From Brachybacterium sp. EE-P12 (lineage in GTDB: Bacteria; Actinomycetota; Actinomycetes; Actinomycetales; Dermabacteraceae), in NCBI RefSeq assembly GCF_003711805.1, contig NZ_QXCP01000010.1, forward strand, positions 125,061-189,060: DNA of 64,000 nucleotides, read 5' to 3'. Under the pieces are notes generated by a model. That model searched no databases. It was given only the letters and a program-made list of their open reading frames with translations, and was not told the origin of the DNA. Of the stretch, positions 14,890-64,000 are shown piece after piece. Numbering within the stretch: position 1 is the stretch's first letter; each line of letters starts with the position of its first letter. A program made the position numbers and the translations under genes.

Positions 14890-15534
14890 GGGCAGGTTCC
14901 TTCGCGGTTGAGAGCAGGCGGGCACTACGGGAGGGCCGGCGGGCGGCAGGCCCTCGGTGGGCGCGACGGGAGACGGGCCCGGCGGCCGGCGACGCCGACG
15001 GGTCCCCGTCGGCCGCTGCGCACGCTGTGGGTGCTCCCGCCCGCGCGGCACCGGATCGGCTCCGGTCGCCCTGCGCACGGGGCACCCTGCGAACGGGCGC
15101 CGGCCGCGGCCAGTCTACGAAGAGGCCTGGTCCTGGCCCCAGCGCCCTCGGCATGCGAGACGGCTCCGCAGGTCAGCGCGGTCCCGTGGAGTGACCGGGG
15201 CAACATCGGCCCGGGCGCGGCGGGCGGCTGGGCGTGGTGGGGCGGGGACGCTCGACTCCGGCCCCAGGGCGGCGCATCTGGTCTCCAGCGCAGCAAAGTT
15301 GGGCCTCTGACGGGGCGAATCGACCAACTTTGCTGACCCGCTCGCCGGTGAGGGCCTGCCCGCCTGCTCCGTCCGCACAGACGGCAGGGATCCCGGCAGA
15401 GGCCGCCCGTGTCGGCGGACGGTGCGGGGGCGTGCGAGACGCCGCACTGAGGAGGAGACGTCCTGACCGAGCCATGACCTCGGCGATGTGGATGGACAGG
15501 ACCGGGGTTCCCCCTCATCCCGAAGCATGCCTCC
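14890..15534. other. Intergenic region between lysC and the nuclease-like gene
   Basis: 645 bp between divergent genes with no gene I can support. Most is GC-rich filler without conserved reading frame. The one clear structure is the hairpin repeat at 15291-15335. A likely ribosome site for lysC (GAAGGAAC) lies at its left end. No riboswitch or leader peptide was recognised. Confidence 0.5.
15291..15335. repeat. Dispersed hairpin repeat, copy 1
   Basis: Perfect 12-bp inverted repeat CAGCAAAGTTGG (15291-15302) / CCAACTTTGCTG (15324-15335) around a 21-nt loop, clearly less GC-rich than its surroundings. Related copies occur at 16746-16794, 21103-21147 and 63948-64000. It lies upstream of both flanking genes, so it is not a simple terminator. 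Confidence 0.85.
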
Positions 15535-16590
15535 ATGGCCCGCAGACCGGCTCCGCTCCCCTCCTCGCTGCCGCACCATGCCTTCACGTCCTCCGAGGCG
15601 CGGAGGCACGGCATCACCATCGATCGGCTGCGCGCAAGCGATCTGGTCCGTCTCGGATACGGGCTGTACGCCCGGAAGGACGTCGAGCTCACCGAACAGG
15701 CAGTCCTCGGCGCCCTGCTGCGCGAGGACCACCAGATCGTGGTGAGCGGGCGGAGTGCCGCCCGGACCTGGCAGTTCCCCCTTCCGTTCGAGATGCAGCA
15801 CTGGTCGGCCACGCCGCAGATGACCGTGATGGACATGGCGCTGCAGGGCAGGGTGCGCAGGAATCGCCCGTACCTCCGCTGGACCCGGAGGTCCGTGAGT
15901 CCGTCAGAGATCGTGGAGATGGACGGGCTGCGTGTCACCGACCGGGTCCGGACATGGACGGATCTCGCGCTCGAGCTCGGAAAGGATGAGCTGGTCTTCA
16001 TCGCCGACCATCTCGTGCGTCACCCCCGGCCGTGGGCGGAGGACAGGCATTCGCCGTACGCCACTCCCGAGGAGCTGGCCGACGCGATCGAGGCCCGCAC
16101 CGGACGCGCACGGACCCTGCTCAGCGAGGCCCTGCAGCTCGCGCGCATCGGCAGCGACTCCCCGGCGGAGACCCAGCTGCGGCTCGCCGCGGGACGTGCC
16201 GGCCTCCCCGAACCCGTCCTCAATCGGCGCCTGCTCGAGGGGCGGGTCGACCTCGGCGAACCGGACCTCGCCTGGACCGACTGGAAGGTGTGCCTCGAGC
16301 ACGACGGAAGAGATCACCGCTCGAAGGCCCAGCAGGAGAAGGACATCGGCCGACGGGAGAGGCGCGAGCAGCACGGGTGGGTCGAGGTGCAGACCGTCGC
16401 CAACGACCTCACCGACGGATGCCGGCGCGGAATCGCACGCCTCACCGATGCTCTCCGTCGACGCGGCTGGGAGCCCGGGCGTCCTGCACCGGCACCCGAG
16501 CTCCGCCCTCTCTCGCACCCTGCAGGGCTCCCGATACTCGGCGGCCGCACGACGCATACGCCCCAGGCCTCGGCGCATCCGGATGGCTGA
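15535..16590 (+). CDS. AbiEi-like HTH protein with Vsr/DUF559-type nuclease domain
   Basis: A 351-residue protein of a type common in actinobacteria. Residues 15-60 resemble the AbiEi-type antitoxin winged helix (EARRHGITIDRLRASDLVRL, then GLYARKD). Residues about 235-310 form a DUF559/Vsr-like PD-(D/E)XK domain: PDLAW (243-247), CLEHDG (253-258), a D-R-R spaced helix and GWVEVQTV. No AbiEii toxin gene is adjacent. The catalytic acidic residues look intact, so it may cut DNA or be a defence or addiction component; the function is not established. ATG 15535 lacks a good ribosome site. The gene is bracketed by two copies of the hairpin repeat (15291 and 16746). Confidence 0.7.
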   Translation: MARRPAPLPSSLPHHAFTSSEARRHGITIDRLRASDLVRLGYGLYARKDVELTEQAVLGALLREDHQIVVSGRSAARTWQFPLPFEMQHWSATPQMTVMDMALQGRVRRNRPYLRWTRRSVSPSEIVEMDGLRVTDRVRTWTDLALELGKDELVFIADHLVRHPRPWAEDRHSPYATPEELADAIEARTGRARTLLSEALQLARIGSDSPAETQLRLAAGRAGLPEPVLNRRLLEGRVDLGEPDLAWTDWKVCLEHDGRDHRSKAQQEKDIGRRERREQHGWVEVQTVANDLTDGCRRGIARLTDALRRRGWEPGRPAPAPELRPLSHPAGLPILGGRTTHTPQASAHPDG

Positions 16591-16610
16591 GATCCCTGAG
16601 CCGGCTCACC

Positions 16611-16655
16611 TCCGGACGCGATCTCTCCGGACGCGATCTCTCCGGACATGGTCTC
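16611..16655. repeat. 15-bp tandem repeat, three units
   Basis: Unit TCCGGACGCGATCTC twice exactly (16611-16640), then a third unit with three changes (16641-16655). It starts 20 bp after the nuclease-like gene stop. Confidence 0.85.
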
Positions 16656-16745
16656 TGCGCAGCAGATCCCTCCGCCCCACCCCGCCCGGTACCGCCCCGC
16701 CCAGCCCCGCTCACCCGGCCCCACCTCGCCCGGCCCCGCCGCTTC

Positions 16746-16794
16746 CGTAGCAAACATGGTGGATAGAGCGGGTCAGAGCCCCAAGTTCGCTACG
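16746..16794. repeat. Dispersed hairpin repeat, copy 2
   Basis: Arms 16746-16759 and 16781-16794 pair at 12 of 14 positions (CGTAGCAAAC with GTTCGCTACG as outer part) around a 21-nt loop, the same loop length as copy 1. The core GCAAAC...GTTCGC resembles the GCAAAG...CTTTGC of copies 1 and 4. Confidence 0.65.
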
Positions 16795-16894
16795 CGGGGA
16801 GGTGCCCGAACGGGTAGGTCGTGGAGGCCCGAGCGACGTGTGGCAGAGCAGAGCCCGGGCGACACGTGGCAGATGAGGTGCTGAGCAGCATCGA

Positions 16895-17010
16895 GGCCCG
16901 GGCCCGGAAGGGGCGCCGGAGAGCGGGCCGGGCCCGGGAGGGGCGCCGGAGAGCGGGCCGGGGCCGGGAGGGGCGCCGGGGAGGGCCGGGGCCGGGAGGG
17001 GCGCCGGGGA
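16895..17010. repeat. G-rich tandem repeat, about 30-bp period, four units
   Basis: The block GGGCGCCGG recurs at 16911, 16941, 16971 and 16999 within near-identical 28-30 bp units of GGGCC and GGGAGG. This is a simple-sequence array between convergent genes. Confidence 0.8.
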
Positions 17011-17085
17011 GGGCCGCGCCCGGGTCAGGAGCGGGCCGAGCCCGGGTCAGAGCACCCCCGGCGCATCACCTCGTCGGCTGATCCT

Positions 17086-19239
17086 TCACTCCCCCGGCAC
17101 GTCCCGCTCGATCTCGGCGAGCCAGGCGGCCGACACGGCGTCCGAGGGCATCCGCCAGTCCCCGCGCGGGGACAGCGAGCCGCCGGCCAGCACCTTCGGG
17201 GCGTTCGGCAGGGCGGAGCGCTTGAACTGGTTGGAGAAGAAGCGTCTGGTGAACACGGTCAGCCAGTGCTTGATCTCGGGGCGGTCGTAGGCGCGCTCGT
17301 CCTCCGCGACGTACCCGGCCGGCCACCGCCCCGCCCCCGCATCGCCCCAGGCCTGATGGGCCAGATAGGCGATCTTCGCAGGCCCGTAGCCGCGTCGCAG
17401 CACGTGGTAGAGCGTGAAGTCGTGCAGGGCGTAGGGGCCGATGGAGTCCTCGGTGGACTGCGCCTTCTCGCCGGGCTTGGTGGGGATCAGCTCCGGGGAG
17501 ATCTCGGTGTCGAGCACGGCGCGCAGGATCTCCGCGGTCGCCGCGTCGAAGATCCCCTCGGAGATGACCCAGCGGATGAGGTGCTGGATGAGGGTCTTCG
17601 GCACGCCCGCGTTCACGCCGTAGTGCGACATCTGGTCGCCCACCCCGTAGGTGCACCAGCCCAGCGCCAGCTCGGAGAGGTCGCCGGTGCCCACCACGAT
17701 CCCGCCGTGGTGGTTCGCGAGGCGGAAGAGGTAGTCGTAGCGCAGTCCCGCCTGCACGTTCTCGAAGGTCACGTCGTACACCTCCTCGCCGCTGCCGGCG
17801 GGGTGTCCCATGTCCTTCAGCATCTGCGTGGAGGCGGGGCGGATGTCGATCGTCTCGAAGCTCGCGCCGATCGCGCGGGAGAGCAGCTCGGCGTTGGAGC
17901 GGGTGTGCTCGGTCGTGGCGAAGCCCGGCATCGTGTAGGCGAGGATCTCGGAGCGGTCGCGGCCCAGACGGTCCATCGCCTGTGCGCAGACGATCAGCGC
18001 GTGGGTGGAGTCCAGCCCGCCGGAGACGCCGATGACGGGGCGTGCCCCTCCCTTCTCTCCGCCGCCGATCTGCCTCAGGCGCCGCACCAGGCCCGCGACC
18101 TGGATGTTGTACGCCTCGTAGCAGTCCTGGGCGAGGCGCGCCGGGTCGTCGGGCACGAAGGGGAAGCGGTGCAGCGGCCGCCGCAGCGGGCCGGTGGCGG
18201 GGCGCGTCCGCTCCGCCTCGCCGCCCTCGAGCTCGCCCTCCGGAGAGTCCTGCCCGCTGCCGAGCAGCTCCGTCGTGCTCCAGGTGCGGAACTTCTCGAG
18301 CGAGGCGGCGTGGGTGCGGCGGTTGTCGTCGAAGGTGTTCTGGCGGCGCCGCTCGGAGACGAGCCGGTCGAGGTCGACGTCGACGATCGTGGAGCGCACC
18401 CCCGCCGGGAACCGCTCGGACTCCCCCAGCAGGTCCCCGCACTCGTACACGAAGGTCTGCCCGTCCCAGGCGAGGTCGGTCGTGGATTCGCCCTCGCCTG
18501 CGGCGGCATAGACGTAGGCGGCCTGCGTGCGGGCGGAGGCGGAGCGGGCCATGAGCTTGCGGTCCTCGGCGCGGCCGACGGTGATCGGCGAGCCCGACAG
18601 GTTCGCGATCACGGTCGCGCCGGCGAGCGCGGCCTCGGCGGACGGCGGGACCGGCACCCACATGTCCTCGCAGATCTCGACGGACAGGCGCAGGCCCGGC
18701 ACGTCCTCGACCGTGATGATGCCGTGCGGGGTCAGCGCCTCCTGCAGGTCGCCGAGGATCACGAGCTCGTCGCCGGCGTCGTCGCCGGGGGCGAACCAGC
18801 GACGCTCGTAGAACTCCCGGTAGGTGGGCAGGTTCTGCTTCGGGGTGATGCCCAGGACGCGGCCGCGATGGATCACGACGGCGCAGTTGAAGATCCGCGA
18901 GCGGTCCTGTGCGCGCAGCGGGGCGCCGACGACGATGATCGGCATCAGGTCCTCGCTCGCCTCGAGCACGGTGAGCACGGCCTGCTCGGCGGCGTCCAGC
19001 AGCGGCTCCTGGAGGACCAGGTCGTCCAGCGAGTACCCGGTCAGGGACAGCTCCGGGAAGACCGCGAGCCCGACCTGCTGCTCGTGCAGCTCGCGCAGCA
19101 CCTCGAGGTGGCGCTCGGCGTTCGTGGTCGCATCGGCGAGCGCGACCGGCAGCGTCACCGCGGCGACGCGCACGAATCCGTGGTCGTAGATGCTGGCGTG
19201 GGGGTCCGTGGCCGCGGGGGCGTCCGTCGCAGAGCTCAT
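17086..19239 (-). CDS. nadE: Glutamine-dependent NAD+ synthetase
   Basis: A 717-residue two-domain enzyme making NAD+ from deamido-NAD+, ATP and glutamine. The N-terminal nitrilase-type glutaminase has its triad E63 (FPELSLTGY), K133 (TPKQNLP) and C189 (VEICEDMW). The C-terminal ammonia-dependent synthetase has the pyrophosphatase loop SGGLDS at 405-410. Between them, residues 322-352 form a variable acidic linker. The ATG at 19239 is 6 nt downstream of TACGCT with no ribosome site, so a leaderless start is likely. It is divergent from the second sugar importer and has no NAD-pathway neighbours. Confidence 0.95.
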
Positions 19240-19245
19240 GGCCAG

Positions 19246-19251
19246 AGCGTA
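19246..19251 (-). promoter_or_regulatory. -10 box of nadE, probably leaderless
   Basis: TACGCT on the minus strand lies 6 nt before the nadE ATG, and no Shine-Dalgarno is present. A convincing -35 was not identified. Confidence 0.4.
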
Positions 19252-19332
19252 GTGGAGCACCCCGGCGCCCGCCCCGCTGCGATAGTTTGAGCCGGTGGAT
19301 CATCGGGACGACGCAGGCGGGAGGACGCAGCG

Positions 19333-20196
19333 ATGAACTCCCGCAGACCTCTGGTCGGCTGGCTGCTGATCGCCCCCAGCCTGATCGGCGTCACCTGCTT
19401 CCTGATCCTGCCCGTCGTGCTCGCGTTCGTGGTCTCGCTGTTCCGCTGGGACCTGTACGGCTCGCGCCGCTTCCTGGGCCTGGACAACTACGTCTCGCTG
19501 CTCAGCGACGGCGCGCTCGTCAACTCCCTGCTGGTCACGGCGATCTTCACGCTGATCTCGGTGCCCGTCTCCCTCGCGATCGGACTGGTGCTGGCCACGC
19601 AGCTGGTGCGGGCGCTGCCGGGCTCGGCGATCGTGCGGGTGATCGTGGTGATCCCGTGGGTGTGCGCGCCGCTGGCGCTGGGCGTGGTGTGGAAGTGGAT
19701 CTTCCAGCCGTCGGTCGGCGCGCTGAACCAGATCCTCGGGGTGCGGATCGAGTGGCTCACCGACCCGTCGCTGGCCCTGCCCGCGGTCGCCTTCGTCGCG
19801 ATCTGGCAGAACGTCGGCTACATCTCGCTGTTCTTCCAGGCCGGGCTCACCCGCATCCCCGGCTCGATCTACGAGGCCGCCCGGATCGACGGCGCCGGCC
19901 CCGCCCAGCAGCTCTGGCACATGACGATCCCGCTGCTGCGGCCGACGACCTTCTTCCTCGCCGTCACGCAGGTGGTCGCGTCCTTCCAGGTGTTCGACAT
20001 GGTCTACGCGCTCACCGGCGGCGGGCCGCAGCATCGCACCGAGGTCATCGCCTCCCTCATCTACAACGAGGCGTTCGGCGCGAGCCGCCTGGGCCGGGCC
20101 AGCGCCGTCGCCGTCATCCTGTTCCTCCTGCTGGTGGTGATCACGGTGATCCAGCAGCGCTGGTTCTCCAAGCGCATCACCTACGACATGAGCTGA
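19333..20196 (+). CDS. Sugar ABC importer permease, MalF/UgpA type
   Basis: A 287-residue permease with about six membrane segments. The EAA loop is EAARIDGAGPAQQLWHMTIP near residues 178-200, and the start region (FRWDLYGSRRFLGLDNYVSL) is typical of UgpA/LacF subunits. CGGGAGGACGCAGCG precedes ATG 19333. It is followed 13 bp later by the second permease, and the binding lipoprotein comes third. Putting the lipoprotein last is less common than putting it first. No ATPase gene is present in the operon. The substrate is unknown. Confidence 0.9.
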   Translation: MNSRRPLVGWLLIAPSLIGVTCFLILPVVLAFVVSLFRWDLYGSRRFLGLDNYVSLLSDGALVNSLLVTAIFTLISVPVSLAIGLVLATQLVRALPGSAIVRVIVVIPWVCAPLALGVVWKWIFQPSVGALNQILGVRIEWLTDPSLALPAVAFVAIWQNVGYISLFFQAGLTRIPGSIYEAARIDGAGPAQQLWHMTIPLLRPTTFFLAVTQVVASFQVFDMVYALTGGGPQHRTEVIASLIYNEAFGASRLGRASAVAVILFLLLVVITVIQQRWFSKRITYDMS

Positions 20197-20209
20197 GAGG
20201 AGGGACGAG

Positions 20210-21082
20210 ATGACTGCCCACACCGCTCGCCGCAGGCCGCTGACGGGCTCGCTGCCGGCGCGCCGCGTGCTCGGCCACGGCGCGACCTATCTCGTGCTGC
20301 TCGCCGCGGCCGTGCTGACGCTCGGCCCGTTCCTGTTCTCGGTGATGACCGCCTTCACCTCCACCACGCAGTTCGCGCAGCAGGGGCCGCTGTCGATCCC
20401 CTCCCCGCCGGTGCTGGACAGCTTCGTCGGCCTGCTGACCTCCGCGGACGGCTTCGTCACCCCCGTCGCGGTCACCGTGCAGATGGTCGCCGTGATCCTC
20501 GTGGGGCAGATGGTGTTCTCGGTGCTGGCCGCCTACGCCTTCGCCCAGCTCCGCTTCCCTGGGCGTGACCTGCTGTTCTGGGTGTACATCGCGACGCTCA
20601 TGGTGCCGCAGGTGGTGGTCGTGGTGCCGCTGTACCTGATGCTCTCGGAGATGGGGCTGCGCAACACCTTCTGGGCGCTGGTGCTCCCCTTCGTGCTCGG
20701 CTCCCCGTATGCGATCTTCCTGCTGCGGGAGAACTTCCGCGGCATCCCCTCCGAGCTCATGGACGCGATGCGGATCGACGGCGCGGGCACCCTGCGCCTG
20801 CTGCGGCACCTGGTGGTGCCGCTGAACCGGCCAATCATCGTCACCCTCGTGCTGATCACGGTGGTCACGCACTGGAACAGCTTCATGTGGCCGATGGTGA
20901 TCACCTCCGGTCCCGAATGGCGGGTGATCACCGTGGCGACCTCGGCGCTGCAATCGCAGTACAACAACAACTGGACCCTGGTCATGGCCGGGACCACGCT
21001 CGCGATGCTGCCGCTGGTGATCCTCATGGTCATCTTCCAGAAGCAGATCACCCGCTCCGTGGGGGAGGCGACGCTGCGCTGA
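20210..21082 (+). CDS. Sugar ABC importer permease, MalG/UgpE type
   Basis: A 290-residue permease with about six membrane segments. The EAA loop is MDAMRIDGAGTLRLLRHLVV near residues 184-203, with HWNSFMWPMVITSGPEWRVI towards the end. GAGAGGAGGGACGAG precedes ATG 20210. It partners the upstream MalF-type protein to form the transmembrane channel of the second carbohydrate importer. A hairpin repeat and 195 bp separate it from the binding-protein gene, which may alter relative expression within the operon. Confidence 0.9.
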   Translation: MTAHTARRRPLTGSLPARRVLGHGATYLVLLAAAVLTLGPFLFSVMTAFTSTTQFAQQGPLSIPSPPVLDSFVGLLTSADGFVTPVAVTVQMVAVILVGQMVFSVLAAYAFAQLRFPGRDLLFWVYIATLMVPQVVVVVPLYLMLSEMGLRNTFWALVLPFVLGSPYAIFLLRENFRGIPSELMDAMRIDGAGTLRLLRHLVVPLNRPIIVTLVLITVVTHWNSFMWPMVITSGPEWRVITVATSALQSQYNNNWTLVMAGTTLAMLPLVILMVIFQKQITRSVGEATLR

Positions 21083-21102
21083 GGCTCGCGGCGATGCTGT
21101 GT

Positions 21103-21147
21103 CAGCGAACCGGGGCTTCTGGGGCGGCCTTGAGCCCCACTTCGCTG
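21103..21147. repeat. Dispersed hairpin repeat, copy 3
   Basis: Arms 21103-21117 and 21133-21147 pair at 13 of 15 positions (CAGCGAA / TTCGCTG outside, GGGGCT / AGCCCC inside) with a 15-nt loop. It lies inside the sugar importer operon, between the second permease and the lipoprotein gene. Confidence 0.7.
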
Positions 21148-21277
21148 CCGGGCACCGACAGGAACGAGCCGCCCCCGGTCGCTCGCGTCCGCCCCGGACA
21201 CAGACGGACATACCACGCCCCGATCCGGCACCGTCGGACGATAATGGACAGAACGCCACTGCTCGGAAGGACCTCCC

Positions 21278-22657
21278 ATGCGCTCCCTGACCTCGCCGCT
21301 GAAGCGTCGCACCCTCCTGTCCTCCTTCGCCGCCGCCGGCCTGCTCGGCGCGGCGGCCGCCTGCTCCCCCTCGGGCGGCGGTGACGGCGGCTCCGGCGAC
21401 GGCGGCAGCGATGCCGGCGGCAGCAGCGGCGGGGACAAGGGCACGTTGACCTTCCGCCTGTGGGACGAGAACGCCGTGGCCGCCTACGAGGAGTCCTTCA
21501 CCGCGTTCACCGAGTCCAGCGGCTGGAACGTGTCGATCGACGTGGTGCCGTGGGACGACTACTGGACCCGTCTGCCCCTGGACATCGCCAGCGGCGACGC
21601 GGCGGACGTGTACTGGGTGAACTCCGCGAACTACATCCAGCTCAAGGGCTCCGAGGCGCTGCTGGACATCAACGAGATCATCCCCGACGGCGCCTCCCAG
21701 TGGGAGCAGGCCGTCGTGGACCTGTACACACGCGACGGCGGGCTCTGGGGCGTGCCGCAGATCTGGGACTCGATCGCGCTGTTCTACAACAAGGACCTGG
21801 TCGAGGAGGCGGGCGTGGACCCGTCGGACCTCGCCTTCGACCCCGCCGCGGAGACCGACACGCTGCGCGAGGCGGGCTCGAAGCTGACAGTGGACGGCGA
21901 AGGCCGTCACCCCGGCGAGGACGGCTTCGACCCCGACTCCCGCGCCCGGTTCGGCTTCAACTCGCAGGCCGACCGGCAGGCGATCATCGGCCCGATGCTC
22001 GCCTCGAACGGCGCGCAGTGGCAGGACGAGGACGTGTACACCTTCGCCTCCCCCGAGGGCATCGAGGCGTTCCAGTACATGGCCGACCTCATCAACGTCG
22101 AGAACATCGCCCCCAGCGCCGCGGACACCAACGAGAACGGCGACTTCACCCGCGACCTGTTCACCCAGGGCAAGCTCGGCCTGTTCCAGTCCGGCCCCTA
22201 CAGCCTGCCCGCGATCTCCGAGGGCGTCGCCGACTCCTTCGAATGGGCGCTCGCCGCACCGGTGGCCGGCCCCGACGGGGCGAAGTCCCTGGTGCACGGC
22301 GTGGTCGCGGTCGGCAACGCGAACGCCGACGACGACCAGCAGGAGGGCATCGCCGAGCTGCTGACCTGGCTCGGCACGAAGGAGGGACAGCTGCCGCTGG
22401 CCGAGCAGGGCGTCTCCTTCCCCGGCCATGTCGACGCGCAGGACGCGTACATCGACTTCTGGCAGGAGAAGGGCGTCGACGTCAGCGTGTTCGTCGAGGC
22501 CGCGAAGAACCCCGCCGAGGCCGACACCGGTGCGCGCGCGAACGCCGGGCTCACCGCCGCGATGCCGATCTTCCAGGAGGTCTTCATCGGCCGCCTCACC
22601 GCCGAGGAGGGCATCCCGCAGGCGCAGGAGGAGGGCAACGCCGCGATGGAGGAGTGA
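21278..22657 (+). CDS. Sugar-binding lipoprotein of ABC importer
   Basis: A 459-residue extracellular solute-binding protein (family 1). The signal has LKRRTLLSS followed by a hydrophobic stretch and cysteine C29 as the lipidation site; the twin arginines suggest Tat export. A Gly/Ser/Asp linker (30-50) precedes the two-lobed domain, which starts GTLTFRLWDENAVAAYEESF and contains aromatic sugar-binding residues. GGAAGGACCTCCC precedes ATG 21278. It delivers a sugar to the permeases encoded just upstream. The nearby fucosidase and secreted multidomain protein suggest a glycan-derived substrate, but this is unproven. Confidence 0.9.
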   Translation: MRSLTSPLKRRTLLSSFAAAGLLGAAAACSPSGGGDGGSGDGGSDAGGSSGGDKGTLTFRLWDENAVAAYEESFTAFTESSGWNVSIDVVPWDDYWTRLPLDIASGDAADVYWVNSANYIQLKGSEALLDINEIIPDGASQWEQAVVDLYTRDGGLWGVPQIWDSIALFYNKDLVEEAGVDPSDLAFDPAAETDTLREAGSKLTVDGEGRHPGEDGFDPDSRARFGFNSQADRQAIIGPMLASNGAQWQDEDVYTFASPEGIEAFQYMADLINVENIAPSAADTNENGDFTRDLFTQGKLGLFQSGPYSLPAISEGVADSFEWALAAPVAGPDGAKSLVHGVVAVGNANADDDQQEGIAELLTWLGTKEGQLPLAEQGVSFPGHVDAQDAYIDFWQEKGVDVSVFVEAAKNPAEADTGARANAGLTAAMPIFQEVFIGRLTAEEGIPQAQEEGNAAMEE

Positions 22658-24952: not shown

Positions 24953-24967
24953 CCGGGCCGGGCTCGC

Positions 24968-46458: not shown

Positions 46459-46985
46459 CGTGTGCTCCTGGGCCGGGCGCGTCGCATCCGGGGGCGTCGC
46501 GTCGGTCCCATCCTCGGCCGGGACGCCGGGGCGTCGGCACCCGGATTCCCCTCGCGTTCCCGGGGGCGATCCCCCGCTCGGGACCGCGGCGGCGTCCGGG
46601 CATGAAGCGACCCCTCGCGCACCTGTCAGAGCTCACCTGCCCTTGCTGCCGTCAAGCCCTGGGGGAGTTCAGCAAGATGACACCGCACGAGGGGTCACGC
46701 ACAAGTGTAGCGGCTCCGCAGGGCCCGTCTCGACCCGCTGTGCGCGACTCTGCTCACGACACGCCGTGGCTCGTCGGCCGTCGGCATCCCGCCCGACGAG
46801 GTCGCGGATCCGCTGGCCGGACGCCCTTCTCGACGGCGCGCACCGGGTCACAACCCGGCAACGGGACGCGAAGCGCCTGCGCCGGGCACGCCATGTCCGC
46901 TATGTTCCCTCCCACCAATGGTGACTGCGGTCACCCCTGTCGCGGTGCCAACGGTGTCACCGCCTCCCTATCCCCAGGAGCACTC
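46459..46985. other. Divergent intergenic region upstream of the alanine symporter
   Basis: 527 bp between the CPBP protease and alsT start codons. No gene supported. It contains a short stem-loop (46642-46676, arms CTTGCTG / CAGCAAG, 21-nt loop), a TATGTT box near 46901, and a 16-bp dyad (46920-46935). The ribosome site AGGAG for the symporter is at its right end. Confidence 0.5.
46920..46935. promoter_or_regulatory. Dyad upstream of the alanine/glycine symporter
   Basis: GGTGAC-TGCG-GTCACC, perfect 6-bp arms, 50 bp before the symporter ATG and just downstream of a possible -10 (TATGTT). This is a good position for a repressor. The related half-site GTGTCACC recurs at about 46954-46961. Confidence 0.4.
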
Positions 46986-55663: not shown

Positions 55664-56982
55664 GGGGGTCCTTCTCTCAGCAGGGGCAGATCGAGATGCG
55701 CGCTCCAGTGCCTGCCGTCGGGTCCCGCACGCAGGGTGCCGCCGAGCAGTTCGGCGCGTTCGCGCAGACCGGCGAGTCCGCGGCCGCCCGTGGTCAGCGG
55801 CGCCCCGGCGTCACCGGGATCGGCGGCATCGGGGCGGAGCGCGTTCCTGACGCGCAGACGCAGCCAGCCGTCCTCGCTCGTCAGGGTGAGGTCCACGGGT
55901 CCCGACGCCCCGTGCCGGTGCGCATTGCTGAGCAGCTCGGAGACGCAGCGCAGCAGCTGGGAGCGCTGGAGCTCCGCGAGACCCTCCGGCAGGACGACCC
56001 GGGCGCGCAGGTCCATGCCCGAGGCGCGGTGCGCAGCCAGCAGCTGCTCGAGAGCGGCGGGCGGAGCCGTTCCCCCGTCGGCGAGCGGTGCCGGGCTCCC
56101 TCCTGCGGCACGGTCCCGGCGGCGCGAGCGTCCGTCGGCCACGGCGGCGGTCCGCTCCTCCTCGCGCAGCAGGGCGAGCACGTCGTCGAGCTCGCCGGTC
56201 GCGTCCCGTGCCGTGATCTCGATCGCCTCGAGCGCCTGGGCGACGGCGTGCGGATCCCGATGCCGCAGTCGCCGGGCCGCCGCGGCCTGCACGCTGACGA
56301 TCGTCAGCGCGTGCCCGATGCCGTCGTGCAGCTCGCGGGCGATGCGCGTGCGCTCCGCCTCCCGGGCGACGCGCTGCTGCGCGAGCTCGAGCCGGTCATG
56401 CGTCGTCGGCCCCAGCATGCGCGGCGCGAGCCGTGCGAGCAGCACCCCCGTCGGCCACCACAGCAGGGCGGAGACGGCCCCGACCAGCACAGCGAGAACG
56501 ACGGCGGCCGCGCGGCCGGCGGCGCCGGCGGGCACCGGCACCCCCGAGCCCAGGGAACGGCCCGCCAGGTTCTCGACGATCACGAGCACCGCGGAGGGCA
56601 GGAAGGTCAGCAGCAGCACCGCGACCAGCAGCCCGGCCGTCAGGTGCAGGACCACCCAGGCGCAGCTCGCCAGGTGGTGCGCGAGACGAGGGCGTCGGGG
56701 GACGAGCAGGTCCCCGTCGGCCCCGAGCATGGAGCGGGCTCCGGTCACCTCGAGCTCGCGCACCCCGGGGACGAGGCCGAGCGCCGCACCGAGGAGCAGG
56801 CAGACCGGCACCAGGAGCACGGCGCCGGCCGCCCGGCCGTCCGTCCCGTCCCCCGCCAGCAGCACGGCGCACACCACCACCAGCAGGACCACCGCGAGGC
56901 CGATGGCGGCACCCGCCATCAGCCACGCGAAGCGGCGGCCCTGCCGTCGAACGCTCTCCATCGCTCCATCCTTCTCGATCAT
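55660..56982 (-). CDS. Sensor histidine kinase, HisKA_3 (NarL-partner) type
   Basis: A 440-residue kinase. About five membrane segments fill residues 18-185. The dimerisation and phospho-acceptor box RIARELHDGIGHALT has H219. The ATPase domain has SELLSNAHRHG and GRGLAGLRERAELLGG. A Pro/Ala/Arg linker (about 270-300) separates the two. ATG 56982 overlaps the previous gene (ATGA); MESVRR at 56961 is an alternative start. There is no large extracytoplasmic sensor domain, so the membrane part or the partner protein senses the signal. Confidence 0.92.
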   Translation of the reverse strand: MIEKDGAMESVRRQGRRFAWLMAGAAIGLAVVLLVVVCAVLLAGDGTDGRAAGAVLLVPVCLLLGAALGLVPGVRELEVTGARSMLGADGDLLVPRRPRLAHHLASCAWVVLHLTAGLLVAVLLLTFLPSAVLVIVENLAGRSLGSGVPVPAGAAGRAAAVVLAVLVGAVSALLWWPTGVLLARLAPRMLGPTTHDRLELAQQRVAREAERTRIARELHDGIGHALTIVSVQAAAARRLRHRDPHAVAQALEAIEITARDATGELDDVLALLREEERTAAVADGRSRRRDRAAGGSPAPLADGGTAPPAALEQLLAAHRASGMDLRARVVLPEGLAELQRSQLLRCVSELLSNAHRHGASGPVDLTLTSEDGWLRLRVRNALRPDAADPGDAGAPLTTGGRGLAGLRERAELLGGTLRAGPDGRHWSAHLDLPLLREGPP

Positions 56983-58268
56983 GCCCCTACCGCGCCAGCG
57001 ACATCGGAGGCAGCGCCATCGGAGGAAGCATCGTCGGTGCGGGAGCCGTCCTCGCTCAGGGAACGTCGATGCCCGACGTAGCCCCACACCGCCAGCCCCA
57101 GGGCCGGCCCCCAGAACCAGCAGGGGAACACCAGGGCGAGGACGAGCACGGTGGCCGGGCCCTGCGGGGCGGCTCCGATCAGCAGCGGCACGGCTGCGAA
57201 GGTGAGCAGGGCGGCGACCGCTCCCCCGGGCACGGCGGCCGCGGCGACCGGCACGGGCCGTCCCGCGAGCACCGGCATCCAGCGCGGGAACAGCTCGCCC
57301 CACGGGAGGACCAGCCCGAGGGTCAGGACGATCCCGAGCCAGCCGCCCGAGGAGAGCAGCAGCCCCTGCAGCCGCACGGAGAGGTCCGTGGCGTGCTCAC
57401 CGCCGAGCAGCGGCCACGGGGTGAGCCAGGTCAGGCGCAGCAGCGCGTAGGGAGCCGGCCCGCACGCGGCGAGCACGGTGAGCGGTATCCGGTGGCGGGT
57501 GGCCCAGGCGGTCCCGCGCGCTGCCGCGACCGAGCCGCGCAGGGCGACGGCGGCGATGCCGAGCCACGTCGCGCCCAGCCCCACCAGCAGCAGGCTCAGG
57601 CCGATGGGAGCGAGGTCCGCGATCAGCGCCGGCGCGAGGCGGCCGACGAGCTCACGGGTCGCCGGTCCCAGCAGGACGGCTCCTGCCCCCAGGGCGAGCA
57701 CCGTCACGGCCGAGACCGCGAGACGCGCCCGGGGATAGCGGCGGATGACCTGCACCACCAGCAGCGCCACGATCAGGGGCATGGCGAGGGCGAGCAGGTA
57801 GCCGGCGGTGGCGAGGGTGGACATGCCGCCCATCGCCATCCCGCCCAGGACGCCGAGGACGATCCCGATCCAGGCCAGCGTCGCAGGAGGCAGGACCGCG
57901 GCGTGGGCGGTGAGCGAGGTCGCGACGCCGAGGAGCGCGGCGAGGGTCAGCACGAAGGCGGTCGGGACGGGGCCGACGATGCTCCCCAGCAGGGTCTCGG
58001 CGAGCACCTCGCCGATCGGCCCGCGGCCGGGGAGGAGAAGCTCGAGAAGACCCACAGCAGCAGCGATCACGCTGGTCAGGAGGGCGCTGTGCAGCAGAGG
58101 GCGTGGCACGGGCGGCCGGTCGCGAGCCCCGGGCCGGACGGGGTCGTCGCGCTGGGAGAAGGCAGGGAGCCGGGCGGGACCAGCAGAGCGGGCGAGGCCG
58201 GCGGAGCGGGCGGAGCGATGGGATCGCACGGAGCTCTCAGCGGGTGGAGGGTTCACGGGGTGTTCCAT
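56979..58268 (-). CDS. Polytopic membrane protein linked to a two-component system
   Basis: A 429-residue protein with about ten to eleven membrane segments from residue 55 on and a basic Ser/Ala/Arg-rich N-terminal 50 residues. Its stop overlaps the kinase start, so it is made at a fixed ratio to the kinase. I recognise no transport or enzyme signature. Possible roles are signal input for the kinase or a transporter controlled by it. ATG 58268 is used because the in-frame extension upstream is only a Pro-Trp repeat encoded by a hexamer array. Confidence 0.6.
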   Translation of the reverse strand: MEHPVNPPPAESSVRSHRSARSAGLARSAGPARLPAFSQRDDPVRPGARDRPPVPRPLLHSALLTSVIAAAVGLLELLLPGRGPIGEVLAETLLGSIVGPVPTAFVLTLAALLGVATSLTAHAAVLPPATLAWIGIVLGVLGGMAMGGMSTLATAGYLLALAMPLIVALLVVQVIRRYPRARLAVSAVTVLALGAGAVLLGPATRELVGRLAPALIADLAPIGLSLLLVGLGATWLGIAAVALRGSVAAARGTAWATRHRIPLTVLAACGPAPYALLRLTWLTPWPLLGGEHATDLSVRLQGLLLSSGGWLGIVLTLGLVLPWGELFPRWMPVLAGRPVPVAAAAVPGGAVAALLTFAAVPLLIGAAPQGPATVLVLALVFPCWFWGPALGLAVWGYVGHRRSLSEDGSRTDDASSDGAASDVAGAVGA

Positions 58269-58382
58269 GGCTCGAGCCTCGCCGAGCCGCGGTCGCGTGC
58301 CCTCCCCCGTGCGGGGGAACCCGCTCCCCCGGTCGTGGTGATCGCGTCCCGTCCCCGGGGCAGGGGCCGGGGACGGCCGGAG

Positions 58383-58418
58383 CCAGGGCCAGGGCCAGGG
58401 CCAGGGCCAGGGCCAGGG
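58383..58418. repeat. Hexanucleotide array CCAGGG x6
   Basis: Six perfect tandem copies, about 115 bp upstream of the membrane-protein ATG and 90 bp downstream of the FAD monooxygenase stop (both minus strand). It could vary promoter spacing by slippage. Confidence 0.9.
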
Positions 58419-58508
58419 CTGAAGGATCGAGCGCACGGGGGTCGCGGACGGAGGGACCGCCGTGACCCGGCAGGCGATGCGTGCGGGCCCCGTCAGCGGT
58501 GCCGGGGC

Positions 58509-59672
58509 TCAGCGCGCGAGGAAGCTCCGGGCGGCGAACAGGCTCGCGCCGGGCAGCGTCACCGCACGGCGGGCGATCTGCTGGAACCGCAGCTGGGCCC
58601 GGTTCGCGGGAGCGAAGAAGGAGGCGCTGCGTCGGCCCGCACGTTGCGCGGCGTGGGCCGTCGGCCGCCAGCGGCGCTCGTACTCGACCAGTCCGGTCTC
58701 CACGTGCGGCCCGGCGGCGCGGAGGCTGCGGGCCAGCGCCTCGGCGCCCGCGATGGCCAGGGAGGTGCCCTGTCCGGCCAGCAGCGAGGGGGCATGGGCG
58801 GCGTCCCCGGCGAGCACGACCCGTCCCCGGCTCCAGCGGGGCGCGACGGCCTGCGCGACGAGGTCGTCGTAGAAGCTCTCCGGGGCGTGGGCGAGGGCTC
58901 GGTCGACCTGCGGGTGCAGTCCCGCGAACTCGCGCTGGAGCCGCGCGCGGTCCGGGACCGGTCGCTCGGTGCTCGCGGCATCGGTGCGCTTGGCGAACAT
59001 CGCGCCGACGCGGCCGTCCCCCGCCGCGTACACCCAGCCCACGCGGCCGACGGTGTCGGTCATGAGCATCCGCTCCCCCAGCTCGCCTGCGAGCTGCGGA
59101 TCCGGGTAGAGGTAGCTCGCCACCCGGTATCCCATCGGCACGATCCGGCCGTGTCCCGGCGCGACCCGCTCCCGCACGGCCGAGCGCACGCCGTCGCAGG
59201 CCACGACCAGGTCGGACTCGATGCTCGTCCCGTCGGCGAGCTCGACGAGGGCGCCGCGCGGGGAGCCCCCGCCCTGCAGCCCGATGTCGCGCACCCCGAC
59301 GGCACGGGTGCCGTAACGCAGGTCGACGGAGCCCGGCAGCACCGCGAGGAGCCCGAGCTCGACCTCGGGGCGCAGGATGGAGAAGTAGCGCCCGCCCGCG
59401 GCCGCGACGAGGGGGCCGACGTCGATCCGGCCGGACTCCGCCCCGTCGGGGGTCCCGTAGCGCACTCCCTCGTAGGCGTGCCCGCGGGAGCGGAGCTCGT
59501 CGATGACCCCCATCCGCTCGGCGGCGAGGAAGCCGGGACCGAAGAAGTCGATCATGTACCCGCCGCCGCGCGGGCCCGGGGAGGCCTCGAGCACCGTGAC
59601 GTCGTGATCGGGGGCGAGCTGGTGGGCGAGGGCGAGGCCGGCGATGCCGCCTCCGATGACGGTGACGTCCAT
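58509..59672 (-). CDS. FAD-dependent monooxygenase
   Basis: A 387-residue group A flavoprotein monooxygenase. The FAD dinucleotide fold VIGGGIAGLALAHQL is at 5-19, the DG motif VVACDGVRSAVRE near 155-167 and the GD motif LAGDAAHAPSLLAGQGTSLA near 282-301. It would hydroxylate an aromatic or polyketide-like substrate using NAD(P)H. The ATG at 59672 follows TAGCGT by 7 nt, so leaderless. It is a single gene, 150 bp downstream of the ABC exporter operon. Confidence 0.9.
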   Translation of the reverse strand: MDVTVIGGGIAGLALAHQLAPDHDVTVLEASPGPRGGGYMIDFFGPGFLAAERMGVIDELRSRGHAYEGVRYGTPDGAESGRIDVGPLVAAAGGRYFSILRPEVELGLLAVLPGSVDLRYGTRAVGVRDIGLQGGGSPRGALVELADGTSIESDLVVACDGVRSAVRERVAPGHGRIVPMGYRVASYLYPDPQLAGELGERMLMTDTVGRVGWVYAAGDGRVGAMFAKRTDAASTERPVPDRARLQREFAGLHPQVDRALAHAPESFYDDLVAQAVAPRWSRGRVVLAGDAAHAPSLLAGQGTSLAIAGAEALARSLRAAGPHVETGLVEYERRWRPTAHAAQRAGRRSASFFAPANRAQLRFQQIARRAVTLPGASLFAARSFLAR

Positions 59673-59822
59673 GCCCTCGACGCTACCCGCGCGACGCCGG
59701 CCTGCCCAGGGGGATCTCCCCCGGGCTGGACGACGCCGCGCCAGGGCCGGCGGCCGGCGGCCCGGCGACGGGGCGGGGCCCGGCGGGGGCGATCTCGCGG
59801 GCGGCTCCTCTGCCGCCGCCTG

Positions 59823-61847
59823 CTACTCGAGCTCCGGCTCGGTCGCGGCGACGGCCGGGACCGGGCCGGTCGTGGTGCCCTCCAGCACGGCCTCGTCCTC
59901 GTCGGGATCGACCCCGTCGGCGAACTGCGACCAGTACAGCCGGTGGTAGGCGCCCTCCGCGGCCAGCAGCGCCTCGTGCGAGCCCTGCTCGACGATGTCG
60001 CCGTGCTCCATCACGAGGATCACGTCGGCGTCGCGGATCGTGGAGAGCCGGTGCGCGATCACGAAGGAGGTCCGGTCGGTGCGCAGCGCCGCCATCGCCT
60101 CCTGCACGAGCACCTCGGTGCGGGTGTCCACGGAGCTGGTCGCCTCGTCGAGGATCAGCAGCGCCGGGTCGGCGAGGAAGGCGCGGGCGATCGTGATCAG
60201 CTGCCGCTCGCCGGCGGAGACGTTCGCGCCCTCGTCCTCGATGACGGTGTCGTAGCCGTCGGGGAGGGTGTGCACGAAGCGGTCCACGAAGGTGGCGGTC
60301 GCGGCGGCGACCACCTCCTCGTCGGTCGCGTCCAGCCGGCCGTAGCGGATGTTCTCGCGGATCGTGCCGCCGAAGAGCACCGCGTCCTGGAGCACCATGC
60401 CCACGCGGGAGCGCACCGCGCCGCGGTCCAGGGCGCGGATGTCCACGCCGTCCAGCCGGATCTGCCCGGCGTCGATCTCGTAGAACCGCATGATGAGGTT
60501 CACCAGCGTGGTCTTCCCGGCGCCGGTGGGGCCGACGATCGCGATCGTCTGCCCGGGCTCCGCGGTCAGGGACAGGTCCGTGATCAGCGGCTTCTCCGGG
60601 GTGTAGGAGAAGGCGACGTGGTCGAACTCGATCCGGCCGCGGGTGGGTCCGGTGAGCTCGGCGCGCTCGATGCGCTCGCCGACGGCGGTGATCTGCCCGT
60701 CGGCCTCCTGCTCCTCGGCGTCCAGCAGCTCGAAGATCCGCTCGGCGGAGGCGACGCCGGAGATGAGCATGTTCGCCATGCCCGCCACCTCGCCCAGCGG
60801 CGCGTTGAACTCGCGGGAGTACTGGATGAACGCGGTGACCTGGCCGAGGCTCATCTGCCCGGCCGCGATCCGCAGACCGCCGACCACGGCGATGCCGACG
60901 TAGCCGAGGTAGGTCACCCACTGCATGATCGGCATGATCATGCCGGAGTAGAACTGGGCCTTGAAGGAGGCCTCCCACAGCTCCTCGTTGCGCGCATCGA
61001 ACTGCTCGCGCATCGCGTCCTGGCGGTCGAAGACGGTGACCAGGTCGTGGCCGGTGAAGGACTCCTCGACATGGCCGTTCAGGCGGCCCGTGCCCCGCCA
61101 CTGGGCGGTGAAGAGCTTCTGCGACTTGGAGCCGATGATGCCGATGACCACGCCGGAGATCGGCAGGGCGATCAGGGCGATGAGCGCGAGCTGCCAGGAC
61201 AGCCAGAACATCATCACGGTGATGCCGACGATGGTGAGGACCGCATAGACGAGGGAGGCGAAGGCCTGCTGCAGCGCGGTCTGCACGTTGTCGACGTCGT
61301 TGGTGGTGCGCGAGAGCAGGTCGCCGCGCTGGCGGATGTCGAAGTAGCTCAGCGGCAGTCGGTTCACCTTCGCCTCGATCCGTTCGCGCAGGTCGTAGAC
61401 GATGTCCATCACCACGTCGTTCAGCAGCCGGCCCTGGAGCCAGTCGAACAGCGCCGCGATGACGTACATCCCCAGCACGATCAGCAGCAGGCGTCCGAGC
61501 GCGGGGAAGTCCACGCCGTCGCCGAGGAAGCCGTCGAAGATGACGTCCATCGCATCGCCGAGGATCGAGGGCGCCCACACGGTCAGCACGGTCGAGACGA
61601 TGCCGAAGGCGAGCACGACGGACAGCCCCAGCTCGTGGGTGCGGAAGGTGCCGGCGAGTCGCAGCGCGGAGGGCCAGAAGGCCTTGGCCTTGCGCGGCGC
61701 GCCCTCGCCCCACTCGCTGCTGATCGAGTCCTGCATCTCGAGGATCTCGGACTCGGTGAGCTCGGTGGTCTCGGTGGTGGAGGACGCCCGGCCGGTCGTC
61801 CGCGCCTCGCGCTTCGTGCGCCGGGAGTTCTTCTGCGCCGCGCTCAT
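59823..61847 (-). CDS. ABC exporter half-transporter, subunit with canonical ATP site
   Basis: A 674-residue fused membrane-ATPase half. A 60-residue charged N-terminal tail precedes six helices at about 75-370. The ATPase has Walker A GPTGAGKTT, an altered signature VSAGERQL (normally LSGGQ), and Walker B LLILDEATSSVD with the catalytic Glu intact, then the H-loop IAHRLST. It pairs with the gene upstream, whose Walker B Glu is Asp, to form a heterodimer with one working site. GGAGGAGATGGC precedes ATG 61847, and it overlaps the partner by 4 bp. Confidence 0.93.
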   Translation of the reverse strand: MSAAQKNSRRTKREARTTGRASSTTETTELTESEILEMQDSISSEWGEGAPRKAKAFWPSALRLAGTFRTHELGLSVVLAFGIVSTVLTVWAPSILGDAMDVIFDGFLGDGVDFPALGRLLLIVLGMYVIAALFDWLQGRLLNDVVMDIVYDLRERIEAKVNRLPLSYFDIRQRGDLLSRTTNDVDNVQTALQQAFASLVYAVLTIVGITVMMFWLSWQLALIALIALPISGVVIGIIGSKSQKLFTAQWRGTGRLNGHVEESFTGHDLVTVFDRQDAMREQFDARNEELWEASFKAQFYSGMIMPIMQWVTYLGYVGIAVVGGLRIAAGQMSLGQVTAFIQYSREFNAPLGEVAGMANMLISGVASAERIFELLDAEEQEADGQITAVGERIERAELTGPTRGRIEFDHVAFSYTPEKPLITDLSLTAEPGQTIAIVGPTGAGKTTLVNLIMRFYEIDAGQIRLDGVDIRALDRGAVRSRVGMVLQDAVLFGGTIRENIRYGRLDATDEEVVAAATATFVDRFVHTLPDGYDTVIEDEGANVSAGERQLITIARAFLADPALLILDEATSSVDTRTEVLVQEAMAALRTDRTSFVIAHRLSTIRDADVILVMEHGDIVEQGSHEALLAAEGAYHRLYWSQFADGVDPDEDEAVLEGTTTGPVPAVAATEPELE

Positions 61848-63607
61848 GCCATCTCCTCCGCGGTGATCTGGGAGTCGACGATCTCCCGGTAGGTCTCGGA
61901 GCTCGAAAGGAGCTCCTCGTGGGTGCCGCGGCCGACGATCCGGCCCTCCTCGAGCACGAGGATCTGATCCGCGGAAGTGATGGTGGAGATGCGCTGGGCG
62001 ACGATGATCGTGGTCGCCCCGCGGGTGCGGCGGGCGAGGCCCTCGCGCACCTTCGCATCGGTGGTGACGTCGAGCGCCGAGAACGAGTCGTCGAAGACGT
62101 ACACGCGCGGCGCGGCGACGAGGGTGCGGGCGATGCACAGCCGCTGGCGCTGGCCGCCGGAGACGTTCGTGCCGCCCTGCGAGACGGTGGACTCGAGGCC
62201 CCTGGCGACGTCCTCGCCCTCGCCGGTGGTCCGCTCGCGCACGAAGCCGTCGCCCTGGGCGACCTCGAGCGCCTCCCACAGCTGCGCCTCGTCGGCCGAG
62301 GGGTCGCCGAAGCGGAGGTTGTGGGCGATGGTGCCGGAGAACAGGTACGGCTTCTGCGGCACCAGGCCGACGGTCCGGGAGATGTCCGCACGGGCGAGGT
62401 CGGTGACGGGCACCCCGTCGAGCAGGACCTGGCCGTGCGTCGCGTCGTGCAGGCGCGGGATGAGGCTGACCAGGGTGGTCTTCCCGGATCCGGTCGAGCC
62501 GATGATCGCGGTGGTGCGTCCGGCCTCGGCGGTGAAGGAGATGCCGTCCAGCACCGGCGACTCGGCGCCGGGGTAGGCGAAGGTGACGTCGCGGAACTCG
62601 ACTGTCGCGCCGCCGTCGGCCGCCGGCAGCGGGACGGGGGCGGCGGGCTCGTGGAGGGTGGGGGCGGTCTCGAGCACCTCGCCGATGCGCCGGCCGGAGA
62701 TGATTGCGCGCGGGAACATCATGAACATGAAGGTGCCCATCATGACCGCCATGAGGATCTGCAGCAGGTACTGCATGAAGGCGGTCAGCGCACCGACCTC
62801 GACCAGGCCCGCGTCCACGCGGTGACCGCCGAACCAGAGCACTGCGGCGGTGGCGAGGTGGAGCACGATCGTGATCGCCGGGCCCATGAGCACGAACAGG
62901 CGGCCGATCCGCACGGAGGTGTCGGTCAGGGTCGCGTTCGCGTCGCGGAAGCGGCGCGTCTCGTGCTCCTCGCGCACGAAGGCGCGCACCACGCGGATGC
63001 CCATGATCTGCTCGCGCATGACGCCGTTGATCGCGTCGATGTTGTCCTGCATGCGCTGGAACAGCGGCATCAGGCGGGTGACGAGGAAGCCGACGATCAC
63101 CATCAGCACCGGCACGGAGACCCACACCAGCCAGGACAGACCGGGGTCCTCCTGGATCGCCATGACGATCCCGCCGATGGACATGATCGGCACCATGACC
63201 ATGAAGTTCAGGGTCATCAGCACCAGCATCTGGACCTGCTGGACGTCGTTGGTGGCGCGGGTGATGAGGGTCGGGGCGCCGTAGCGGCCCAGCTCCTCGG
63301 TGGAGAAGCGGTCCACACGGGTGTAGACGGAGCGTCGGATGTCGCGGCCCAGACCCATCGCGGCGCGCGCCCCGAACCAGACCGAGGTGATCGCGGTGAT
63401 GACCTGCACGATGGCGACCAGCAGCATGAGGCCGCCGACGCGCCAGATGTAGTCGGTGTCGCCGGTGGCGACGCCGTTGTCGATGATGTCGGCGTTGAGG
63501 CTGGGCAGGTATAGGGTCGCGAGCACGGTCGCGAGCTGGAGGACGGCGACGGCGGCCACGTGCGGCAGGTAGGGCCGCAGATGTCGCCGGATCAGGGTCC
63601 AGAGCAT
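61844..63607 (-). CDS. ABC exporter half-transporter, subunit with degenerate ATP site
   Basis: A 587-residue half-transporter with six membrane helices (about 15-330) and an ATPase domain with Walker A GSTGSGKTT and signature NVSGGQRQRL. Its Walker B VYVFDDSFSALD carries Asp instead of the catalytic Glu, the known mark of the non-hydrolysing site in heterodimeric exporters. GGGAGACCCCC precedes ATG 63607; the longer upstream frame crosses an operator-like palindrome. The exported compound is unknown; drug or lipid export is typical. Confidence 0.93.
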   Translation of the reverse strand: MLWTLIRRHLRPYLPHVAAVAVLQLATVLATLYLPSLNADIIDNGVATGDTDYIWRVGGLMLLVAIVQVITAITSVWFGARAAMGLGRDIRRSVYTRVDRFSTEELGRYGAPTLITRATNDVQQVQMLVLMTLNFMVMVPIMSIGGIVMAIQEDPGLSWLVWVSVPVLMVIVGFLVTRLMPLFQRMQDNIDAINGVMREQIMGIRVVRAFVREEHETRRFRDANATLTDTSVRIGRLFVLMGPAITIVLHLATAAVLWFGGHRVDAGLVEVGALTAFMQYLLQILMAVMMGTFMFMMFPRAIISGRRIGEVLETAPTLHEPAAPVPLPAADGGATVEFRDVTFAYPGAESPVLDGISFTAEAGRTTAIIGSTGSGKTTLVSLIPRLHDATHGQVLLDGVPVTDLARADISRTVGLVPQKPYLFSGTIAHNLRFGDPSADEAQLWEALEVAQGDGFVRERTTGEGEDVARGLESTVSQGGTNVSGGQRQRLCIARTLVAAPRVYVFDDSFSALDVTTDAKVREGLARRTRGATTIIVAQRISTITSADQILVLEEGRIVGRGTHEELLSSSETYREIVDSQITAEEMA

Positions 63608-63686
63608 GGGGGTCTCCCGGAGCAGGGGTGGTGCGGCCCGGCCGACGGGGTGAGCGGCCGGGGTCTCGTCGGAGCGTAGGAACAAG

Positions 63687-63707
63687 CGCGGACAGATCCT
63701 GTCCGCG
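63687..63707. promoter_or_regulatory. Perfect operator-like palindrome of the ABC exporter operon
   Basis: CGCGGACAG-ATC-CTGTCCGCG, 9-bp perfect arms with a 3-bp centre, 80 bp before the exporter ATG. On the minus strand TACGCT lies about 15 bp downstream as a possible -10, so the palindrome covers the -35 region. The symmetry and size fit a TetR- or MarR-type repressor site. Confidence 0.6.
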
Positions 63708-63840
63708 AGGGGCCCGGTCGGTGCGATGCGGGGCGGGCGCACGCGAGGGCTGACGGTCCATCCTGCCCCGGCAGCCCTCCTCGACGCACCCGACTTTCGG
63801 CCAGGGCGATGCGATACGCGGCACCGCGCGCCGGCACGGC

Positions 63841-63897
63841 CGGGCACCGGGCGGCACGGACGGGCACCGGGCGGCACGGACGGGCACCGGGCGGCAC
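63841..63897. repeat. 20-bp tandem repeat, nearly three units
   Basis: CGGGCACCGGGCGGCACGGA repeated at 63841, 63861 and 63881 (the last lacks its final bases). Confidence 0.9.
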
Positions 63898-63947
63898 CCC
63901 GGTCAGCGCCCCTCCAGCCCTCCAGCCCTCCGGCCCTCCAGCCCTCC

Positions 63948-64000
63948 AGCGCAGCAAAGTTGGGGGTATGCGCCGTTCATAAGCCCCACTTTGCTGCGCT
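63948..64000. repeat. Dispersed hairpin repeat, copy 4
   Basis: Arms AGCGCAGCAAAGTTGGGG (63948-63965) and CCCCACTTTGCTGCGCT (63984-64000) pair along 17 bp with a single bulged T, around an 18-nt loop. The arm reaches the window edge and may continue. It shares CAGCAAAGTTGG with copy 1 and CCCCACTT(T/C)GCTG with copy 3. Confidence 0.85.

Follow-up and report, generated by a model that had tools for sequence, protein, structure and literature searches.

The 64,000-nucleotide stretch of Brachybacterium sp. EE-P12 DNA analyzed here (referred to as the window; its genome is indicated as G000) carries four copies of a dispersed palindrome, two of which frame a gene specifying a nuclease-like protein, and in the genome as a whole this palindrome family has eight copies. 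Many loci of the same protein family are likewise framed by two palindromes, with equal arms to the left and right of the gene and with arms that vary from gene to gene (a gene-typical arm sequence is here named a "dialect"); dialect and nuclease occur together in several genomes, and the arrangement recurs in other genera. We consider it probable that these are REP-like palindromes which an AbiEi/Vsr-type nuclease recognizes and probably disperses, the binding, cutting and movement being putative. The partner gene, the dialects of the family genes and the recurrence in other genera were absent from the original prediction, which concerned the hairpins of the window.

Features of the palindrome family and its associated gene in the window (positions are those of the window)
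Feature	Position	Strand	Description
Palindrome copy 1	15291-15335	.	45-bp core, upstream of the nuclease-like gene
Nuclease-like ORF	15535-16590	+	351 aa; AbiEi-like region and a C-terminal part probably related to Vsr-like nucleases
Palindrome copy 2	16748-16792	.	45-bp core, downstream of the nuclease-like gene
Palindrome copy 3	21103-21147	.	Sole copy; an ABC permease gene (+) on one side, a solute-binding-protein gene (+) on the other
Palindrome copy 4	63952-63996	.	Sole copy between two minus-strand genes, the nearer being an ABC transporter gene

A search of the whole genome (3.96 Mb, 21 contigs) for the arms AGCRAA and TTYGCT, with the gap between them left free at 19-44 bases, retrieved six exact copies versus one for the reversed pattern, and eight versus three when up to one mismatch was allowed, so that the genome-wide count proposed in the original prediction returned an excess. 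In all six exact matches the two arms are spaced by exactly 31 bases, and the element therefore has a fixed frame of 43/45 bp. All four hairpins that had been predicted are present, the wider limits given for the second and the fourth taking in further pairing beyond the 45-bp core (the stem of copy 4 reaches out to 63948-64000, and around copy 1 the pairing runs, in relatives, approximately 6 bp past the core on each side); what had been described as loops of 15-21 nt is instead part of one fixed-frame site with internal mismatches and a constant 31-base arm spacing. A covariance model built from the eight copies, whose outer arms read CAGCRAAG, finds the same eight in the genome, five of them on the contig of the window (C12) and one each on C7, C9 and C10.

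Compensating changes in the stem, from which selection had been suggested, were borne out on two measures, since among the eight copies 17 cells are altered on both sides versus 11.2 in shuffles and the covariation is 0.237 versus 0.161 (7 of 500 shuffles being as high in either case), but not on two others, the number of pairs changed on both sides (10 versus 8.1; 68/500) and of further pair types (16 versus 14.7; 181/500) being unexceptional. Taken by themselves, the eight copies lend moderate support to paired changes; addition of 14 relatives raises the number of cells changed on both sides to 82 versus 29.2 (0/500), a value which is inflated, these relatives having been found with a pairing model. 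When folded as single-stranded DNA of the + strand, copies 1 and 4 are far better than their shuffles (z -3.8 and -6.1) and copies 2 and 3 weakly better (z -0.3 and -1.7). The predicted AT-richness holds for copies 1, 2 and 4, with a G+C content of 0.58, 0.53 and 0.56 versus 0.72 for the window, but not for copy 3 (0.71). Of the kinds of element proposed, a REP-like element and a protein-binding site both fit the present results, while a processed RNA is favored by nothing that was found; Rfam at gathering scores gave no match at the palindromes of the window. The sole Rfam match of the window is a small bacterial SRP RNA (46603-46699, - strand).

The protein encoded between copies 1 and 2 contains an AbiEi-like region (residues 16-155, E 5.5e-7). 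The protein itself has no Pfam match, including none to MTES_1575/DUF559; among 40 aligned relatives, 12 match MTES_1575, 10 match DUF559 (E<=0.01) and two match AbiEi_4, and through these relatives its C-terminal part appears related to the MTES_1575/DUF559 Vsr-like restriction nucleases. Across the 40 aligned sequences E255 never varies, and at least 90% of them have E212 and D244; we take these three to be conserved acidic active-site residues, as in a PD-(D/E)XK nuclease. The best solved structure for the window protein is 3hrl, with an E value of only 0.016, and a single-sequence structure prediction (mean pLDDT 35) was too poor for use. The gene is neighbored by an aspartate-kinase-type gene on the opposite strand and by a convergent gene without a Pfam match, and no AbiEii-type toxin partner was recognized among its scanned neighbors.

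A protein search retrieved relatives of the window protein, some of them distant, in all 38 genomes of the genus, and 70 loci were examined, 30 from the search itself and 40 chosen among its matches, of which 34 are strong and six weak, the selection being made by protein similarity alone with hairpins ignored; one G002 gene was counted twice, and 69 loci were evaluable. Local alignment of the 450-bp flanks reached the cut score of >=20 at 36 of the 69 Brachybacterium loci (about half falling below it) versus 2 of 409 mismatched left/right flanks, at 30 of 40 loci outside the genus (picked from high-scoring matches in 30 genomes of other genera) versus 1 of 235 mismatched flanks, and at 0 of 26 genes of the window. 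A palindrome-based test was positive at 30/69 Brachybacterium loci and 23/40 loci of other genera, versus 2/815 mismatched flanks, 0/26 window genes and 1/138 shuffles; one-flank palindromes under a loose definition are common by chance, being present upstream of 16 of the 26 window genes. The motifs CGA and TCG lie near the hairpin ends in 36 of 60 flank hairpins of Brachybacterium versus 2 of 60 at sites 20 bp further out, and in 15 of 46 versus 0 of 46 in the other genera. The gene at 15535-16590 itself misses the strict flank cuts (arm identity 11/14, flank score 17.5), as do the two relatives closest to it (arm identity 10/14 in L105 and L106); what speaks for it is the membership of both flanking copies in the eight-copy family.

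In a sample drawn from the whole order, 91 of 119 genomes and 44 of 56 genera matched the family. Relatives were also found in six plasmid or phage records; at all five loci that were read the two flanks carry matching repeats, with scores of 24.5 to 43.5, one of these loci being an annotated DUF559 gene on a plasmid of Tsukamurella, of the order Mycobacteriales. At locus L304, in a record named "Bacteriophage sp." from a human faecal sample (MT837503.1), a relative of the nuclease has hairpins whose arms approximately equal those at a G004 nuclease (L163); the record may represent bacterial rather than phage DNA. Nine pattern matches came from viral contigs, none of them being a relative of the nuclease-like protein family.

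G000 has a second nuclease of the family, on contig C17, with two near-identical flanking hairpins and no further copies of its hairpin on that 397-kb contig. The same contig carries another hairpin family with GGCCTATGGCG arms (L266 and L282, C17:44507-44566 and C17:363244-363295), for which no partner gene was recognized. At L169 (C9:177186-180608 of G000) a distant nuclease relative is flanked by near-identical 50-bp direct repeats, which are poorly palindromic and of which several copies follow downstream.

A broader model of the palindrome gave matches at E <= 0.001 in 15 of the 38 genus genomes, and 49 copies from seven genomes were read, those of other genomes being mostly left out. Frame and inner part are alike across the 49 copies (GGGGGAATG...CATTCCCCC in many), and the outer arms are typical of the genome: GTGACGAA in G010 and G014, GGGGCAAAG in G036 and TTGCGCAG in G008, with two of these in G027. 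Among the 41 copies from the other six genomes the stem extends approximately 6 bases past the 45-bp core before pairing drops to background level, for which reason the palindrome unit is taken as approximately 57 bp; in the eight G000 copies the pairing beyond the core is weak. Four of the seven genomes (G000, G008, G010 and G014) possess a nuclease with the dialect of that genome alongside. No nuclease with a matching dialect was found among all five matches read in G036, all three in G027 and the three loci read in G006, nor was a nuclease found within 6-9 kb around the sole copies of these genomes. A locus akin to the G008 nuclease locus (L078, G027:C1:3023791-3032984) has two palindromes 3.1 kb apart with no detectable nuclease between them, the gene possibly having been lost. 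One G036 copy (L085:3001-3045, G036:C29:54594-54638) combines a left arm of the GGGGCAAAG dialect with a right end, TTCGTCACG, resembling the GTGACGAA dialect, and is possibly a chimera of the two, while at L017 (G004:C5:172137-172229) two near-identical palindromes lie in tandem, 47 bp apart from start to start. A scan of 396 genomes of the order with model R2 gave matches in 23, those outside the genus being mostly weak and left uncounted, as several have the appearance of plain perfect hairpins. When named genomes were scanned with the pattern, it matched three Brachybacterium records and another three belonging to bacteria that seem unrelated.

Were each dialect linked to its nuclease, its sole copies should turn up in genomes with that nuclease, and this was found for the one further dialect covered genome-wide. 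This second dialect, GAGCTCTGC...GCAGAGCTC, has 9, 9 and 8 copies in G009, G015 and G024, nuclease-side copies included, one copy in G012 and none in the other 34 genomes, the reversed control giving none in all 38. Arms reading GCTCTGC lie on both sides of a nuclease in G015; beside nucleases of G009 and G024 they were observed only upstream. Of the 26 second-dialect copies 15 were examined, and in these C and G invariably border the searched arms, with conservation going no further. At 16 loci of this dialect the translated flanks match between species at the nuclease loci only, and one copy in G009 agrees at 95% over 62 bp with one in G024, although the two have unrelated surroundings. Two identical copies situated 5.7 kb apart in G015 also share adjoining sequence, which indicates that local duplication happens too. 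Similarity of the arms is 14/14 where the proteins are at least 80% identical (2 pairs), on average 10 at 60-80% and 7-8 below 60%, the overall correlation being weak (Spearman 0.08, p 0.035, 53 genes); this pattern would fit fast co-divergence, part of the signal being given by shared descent of the locus. By protein region, the Spearman values of the middle (0.12), of the whole protein and the N-terminal part (0.08-0.09) and of the C-terminal part (0.06) are too close to decide which of these the arms follow.

Consistent with the original prediction, the four copies of the window lie between divergent (copy 1), convergent (copy 2) and same-strand genes (copies 3 and 4). For the 49 copies of the seven genomes, gene calls made by a simple script placed 22 in convergent, 18 in tandem and one in divergent gaps, four inside called ORFs and four unclassed, with copy 3 of the window miscalled as convergent (it is tandem) and other such errors possible; the lone divergent-gap copy is the nuclease's own upstream copy. 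The remaining gaps of these loci that measure 60 bp or more are 3 convergent, 28 tandem and 14 divergent, the copies being depleted from divergent gaps and in excess in convergent ones. This placement is REP-like and argues against promoter operators, and bears on a regulatory reading in which an AbiEi-like regulator binds the palindromes as operators of itself and of a small gene set, the nuclease domain serving another purpose or being inactive. Such a reading draws on the AbiEi-like region of the window protein, on the similarity in size between the palindromes and the AbiEi site, and on AbiEi of Streptococcus, reported to bind its own promoter at a long inverted repeat and to repress it (PMC3985639). 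It appears unlikely, however, since a copy also lies downstream of the gene, since elsewhere the copies are found mostly at 3' ends (31 of the 40 classed copies with a neighboring 3' end sit within 100 bp of it) and in a divergent gap in only one of 41 classed cases, and since a scan limited to the sigma-70-type consensus revealed no promoter-like site around copies 1 and 2.

Certain intergenic positions are occupied in several species. The gap following one gene of approximately 500 aa contains a hairpin of a known dialect in G000, G009, G010, G014, G015 and G036, the dialects differing between genomes and the G015 copy having the arms of a resident nuclease, and a palindrome with at least 16 of 18 pairs and arms outside the known dialects in G001, G003, G004, G018 and G028; of the 29 genomes possessing this gene, 18 are without a palindrome of this level, some of them at contig ends. 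Two more copy-bearing neighborhoods are common to G000 and other genomes. Such shared slots are either old sites that switched dialect together with the nuclease or places hit repeatedly, both of which suggest a factor that reads the arms, though they also allow old, static sites. The filling of the same slot in several species could also be expected if the palindromes pre-existed with some other function and the nuclease gene were a homing-type invader inserting there, the sole copies being empty sites, and a nuclease gene adjoining lysC, with flanking hairpins whose dialects differ between G000 and G014, agrees with this; yet the gene is flanked by two whole copies instead of the two halves of one, and an independent site function leaves unexplained why dialects vary with the nuclease, which makes homing a decidedly improbable account. 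That the palindromes are bidirectional transcription terminators or insulators between genes is very improbable in spite of the convergent-gap excess and the nearness to stop codons, since no T-tailed intrinsic terminator is present around copies 1 and 2 (window 14900-17200) and terminator function alone, as had already been argued, is too little, leaving the fixed length, the shared arms flanking one gene family and the nuclease-linked dialects unexplained.

According to the favored explanation, recognition and spread by the nuclease, the palindromes of approximately 57 bp would be the cognate recognition sites of a nuclease-like protein composed of an AbiEi-type DNA-binding region and a Vsr/MTES_1575-type domain, the full unit would consist of the gene with its two flanking palindromes, and the sole copies would be non-autonomous offspring or targets of that unit. 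Subunits of the protein would bind the two half-sites, and because the palindromes approximate the AbiEi site in size and their outer arms are the better conserved, we infer that each subunit reads one half-site through its AbiEi-like part, perhaps together with the region following it. Cleavage at or beside a palindrome would then fall to the nuclease part, and repair would copy the palindrome from one place to another, a process by which palindromes may spread in intergenic gaps and become homogenized to the dialect of the resident nuclease. It is quite possible, though put forward more tentatively, that such units are widespread self-spreading elements of actinobacteria, each with an AbiEi/Vsr-type nuclease gene and a private dialect dispersed and homogenized by that nuclease, so that the REP/RAYT strategy would have arisen anew with a nuclease of the restriction type. 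If so, a large and little-studied gene family would gain a concrete, testable substrate, it would be shown that the partner enzyme of REP-like palindromes need not be a Y1 transposase, and the many gene-specific dialects would lend themselves to a study of long-palindrome recognition by AbiEi-type regions.

Among known systems the closest parallel is to REP/RAYT (TnpA-REP, REPtrons), portrayed in two reports as short intergenic palindromes that fall into several sequence classes, the enzyme gene having palindromes of its own class on both sides (PMC8266576, PMC3733652). The present palindromes are likewise intergenic, occur in several classes, lie mostly outside promoter gaps and frame their partner gene, here of another enzyme family (36/69 and 30/40 loci). 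A RAYT association is rejected, as the Y1 (HUH) transposase domain PF01797 was found in none of the 38 genus genomes, the control being positive in 5 of 14 named genomes. RAYT-associated REPs are usually shorter and far more numerous (PMC3733652, PMC2817692), whereas the unit described here measures approximately 57 bp with at most 8-13 copies read per genome (eight in G000; 26 over three genomes for the second dialect). In contrast to the unpaired GTAG (or CGTC) tag of REPs, the ends are paired here (CGA...TCG); GTAG is confined to some of the TA-type copies (in the window, copy 2), where it forms the base of the stem and pairs with CTAC. The CGTC-type REPs share the lack of a tie to the Y1 transposase, but the account given of them in one report is of 8-9 bp stems, of other phyla and of no known partner gene (PMC3733652).

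On the protein side, the N-terminal region resembles AbiEi, the antitoxin of the AbiE type IV toxin-antitoxin system, which also reads long palindromes, the site bound by a characterized AbiEi being two 23-bp inverted repeats 3 bp apart (23-3-23 bp; PMC3985639). The family examined here differs in having a restriction-nuclease-like C-terminal part, no recognized toxin partner, and palindromes that lie on both sides of the gene and are dispersed. In relatives the C-terminal domain matches the Vsr-like domains MTES_1575 and DUF559 (12 and 10 of the 40, respectively), MTES_1575 having been described from a large multidomain HEPN protein in a text whose corresponding passages mention no palindromic partner sites (PMC3710099). 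Within the portions of the open-licence PubMed Central literature that were consulted, no description of a nuclease combined with a private palindrome was found. The system works like REP/RAYT but lacks its defining feature, the Y1 transposase, and looks like a small REP-like DNA element of an undescribed kind, which recurs with other hairpin sequences in other actinobacteria.
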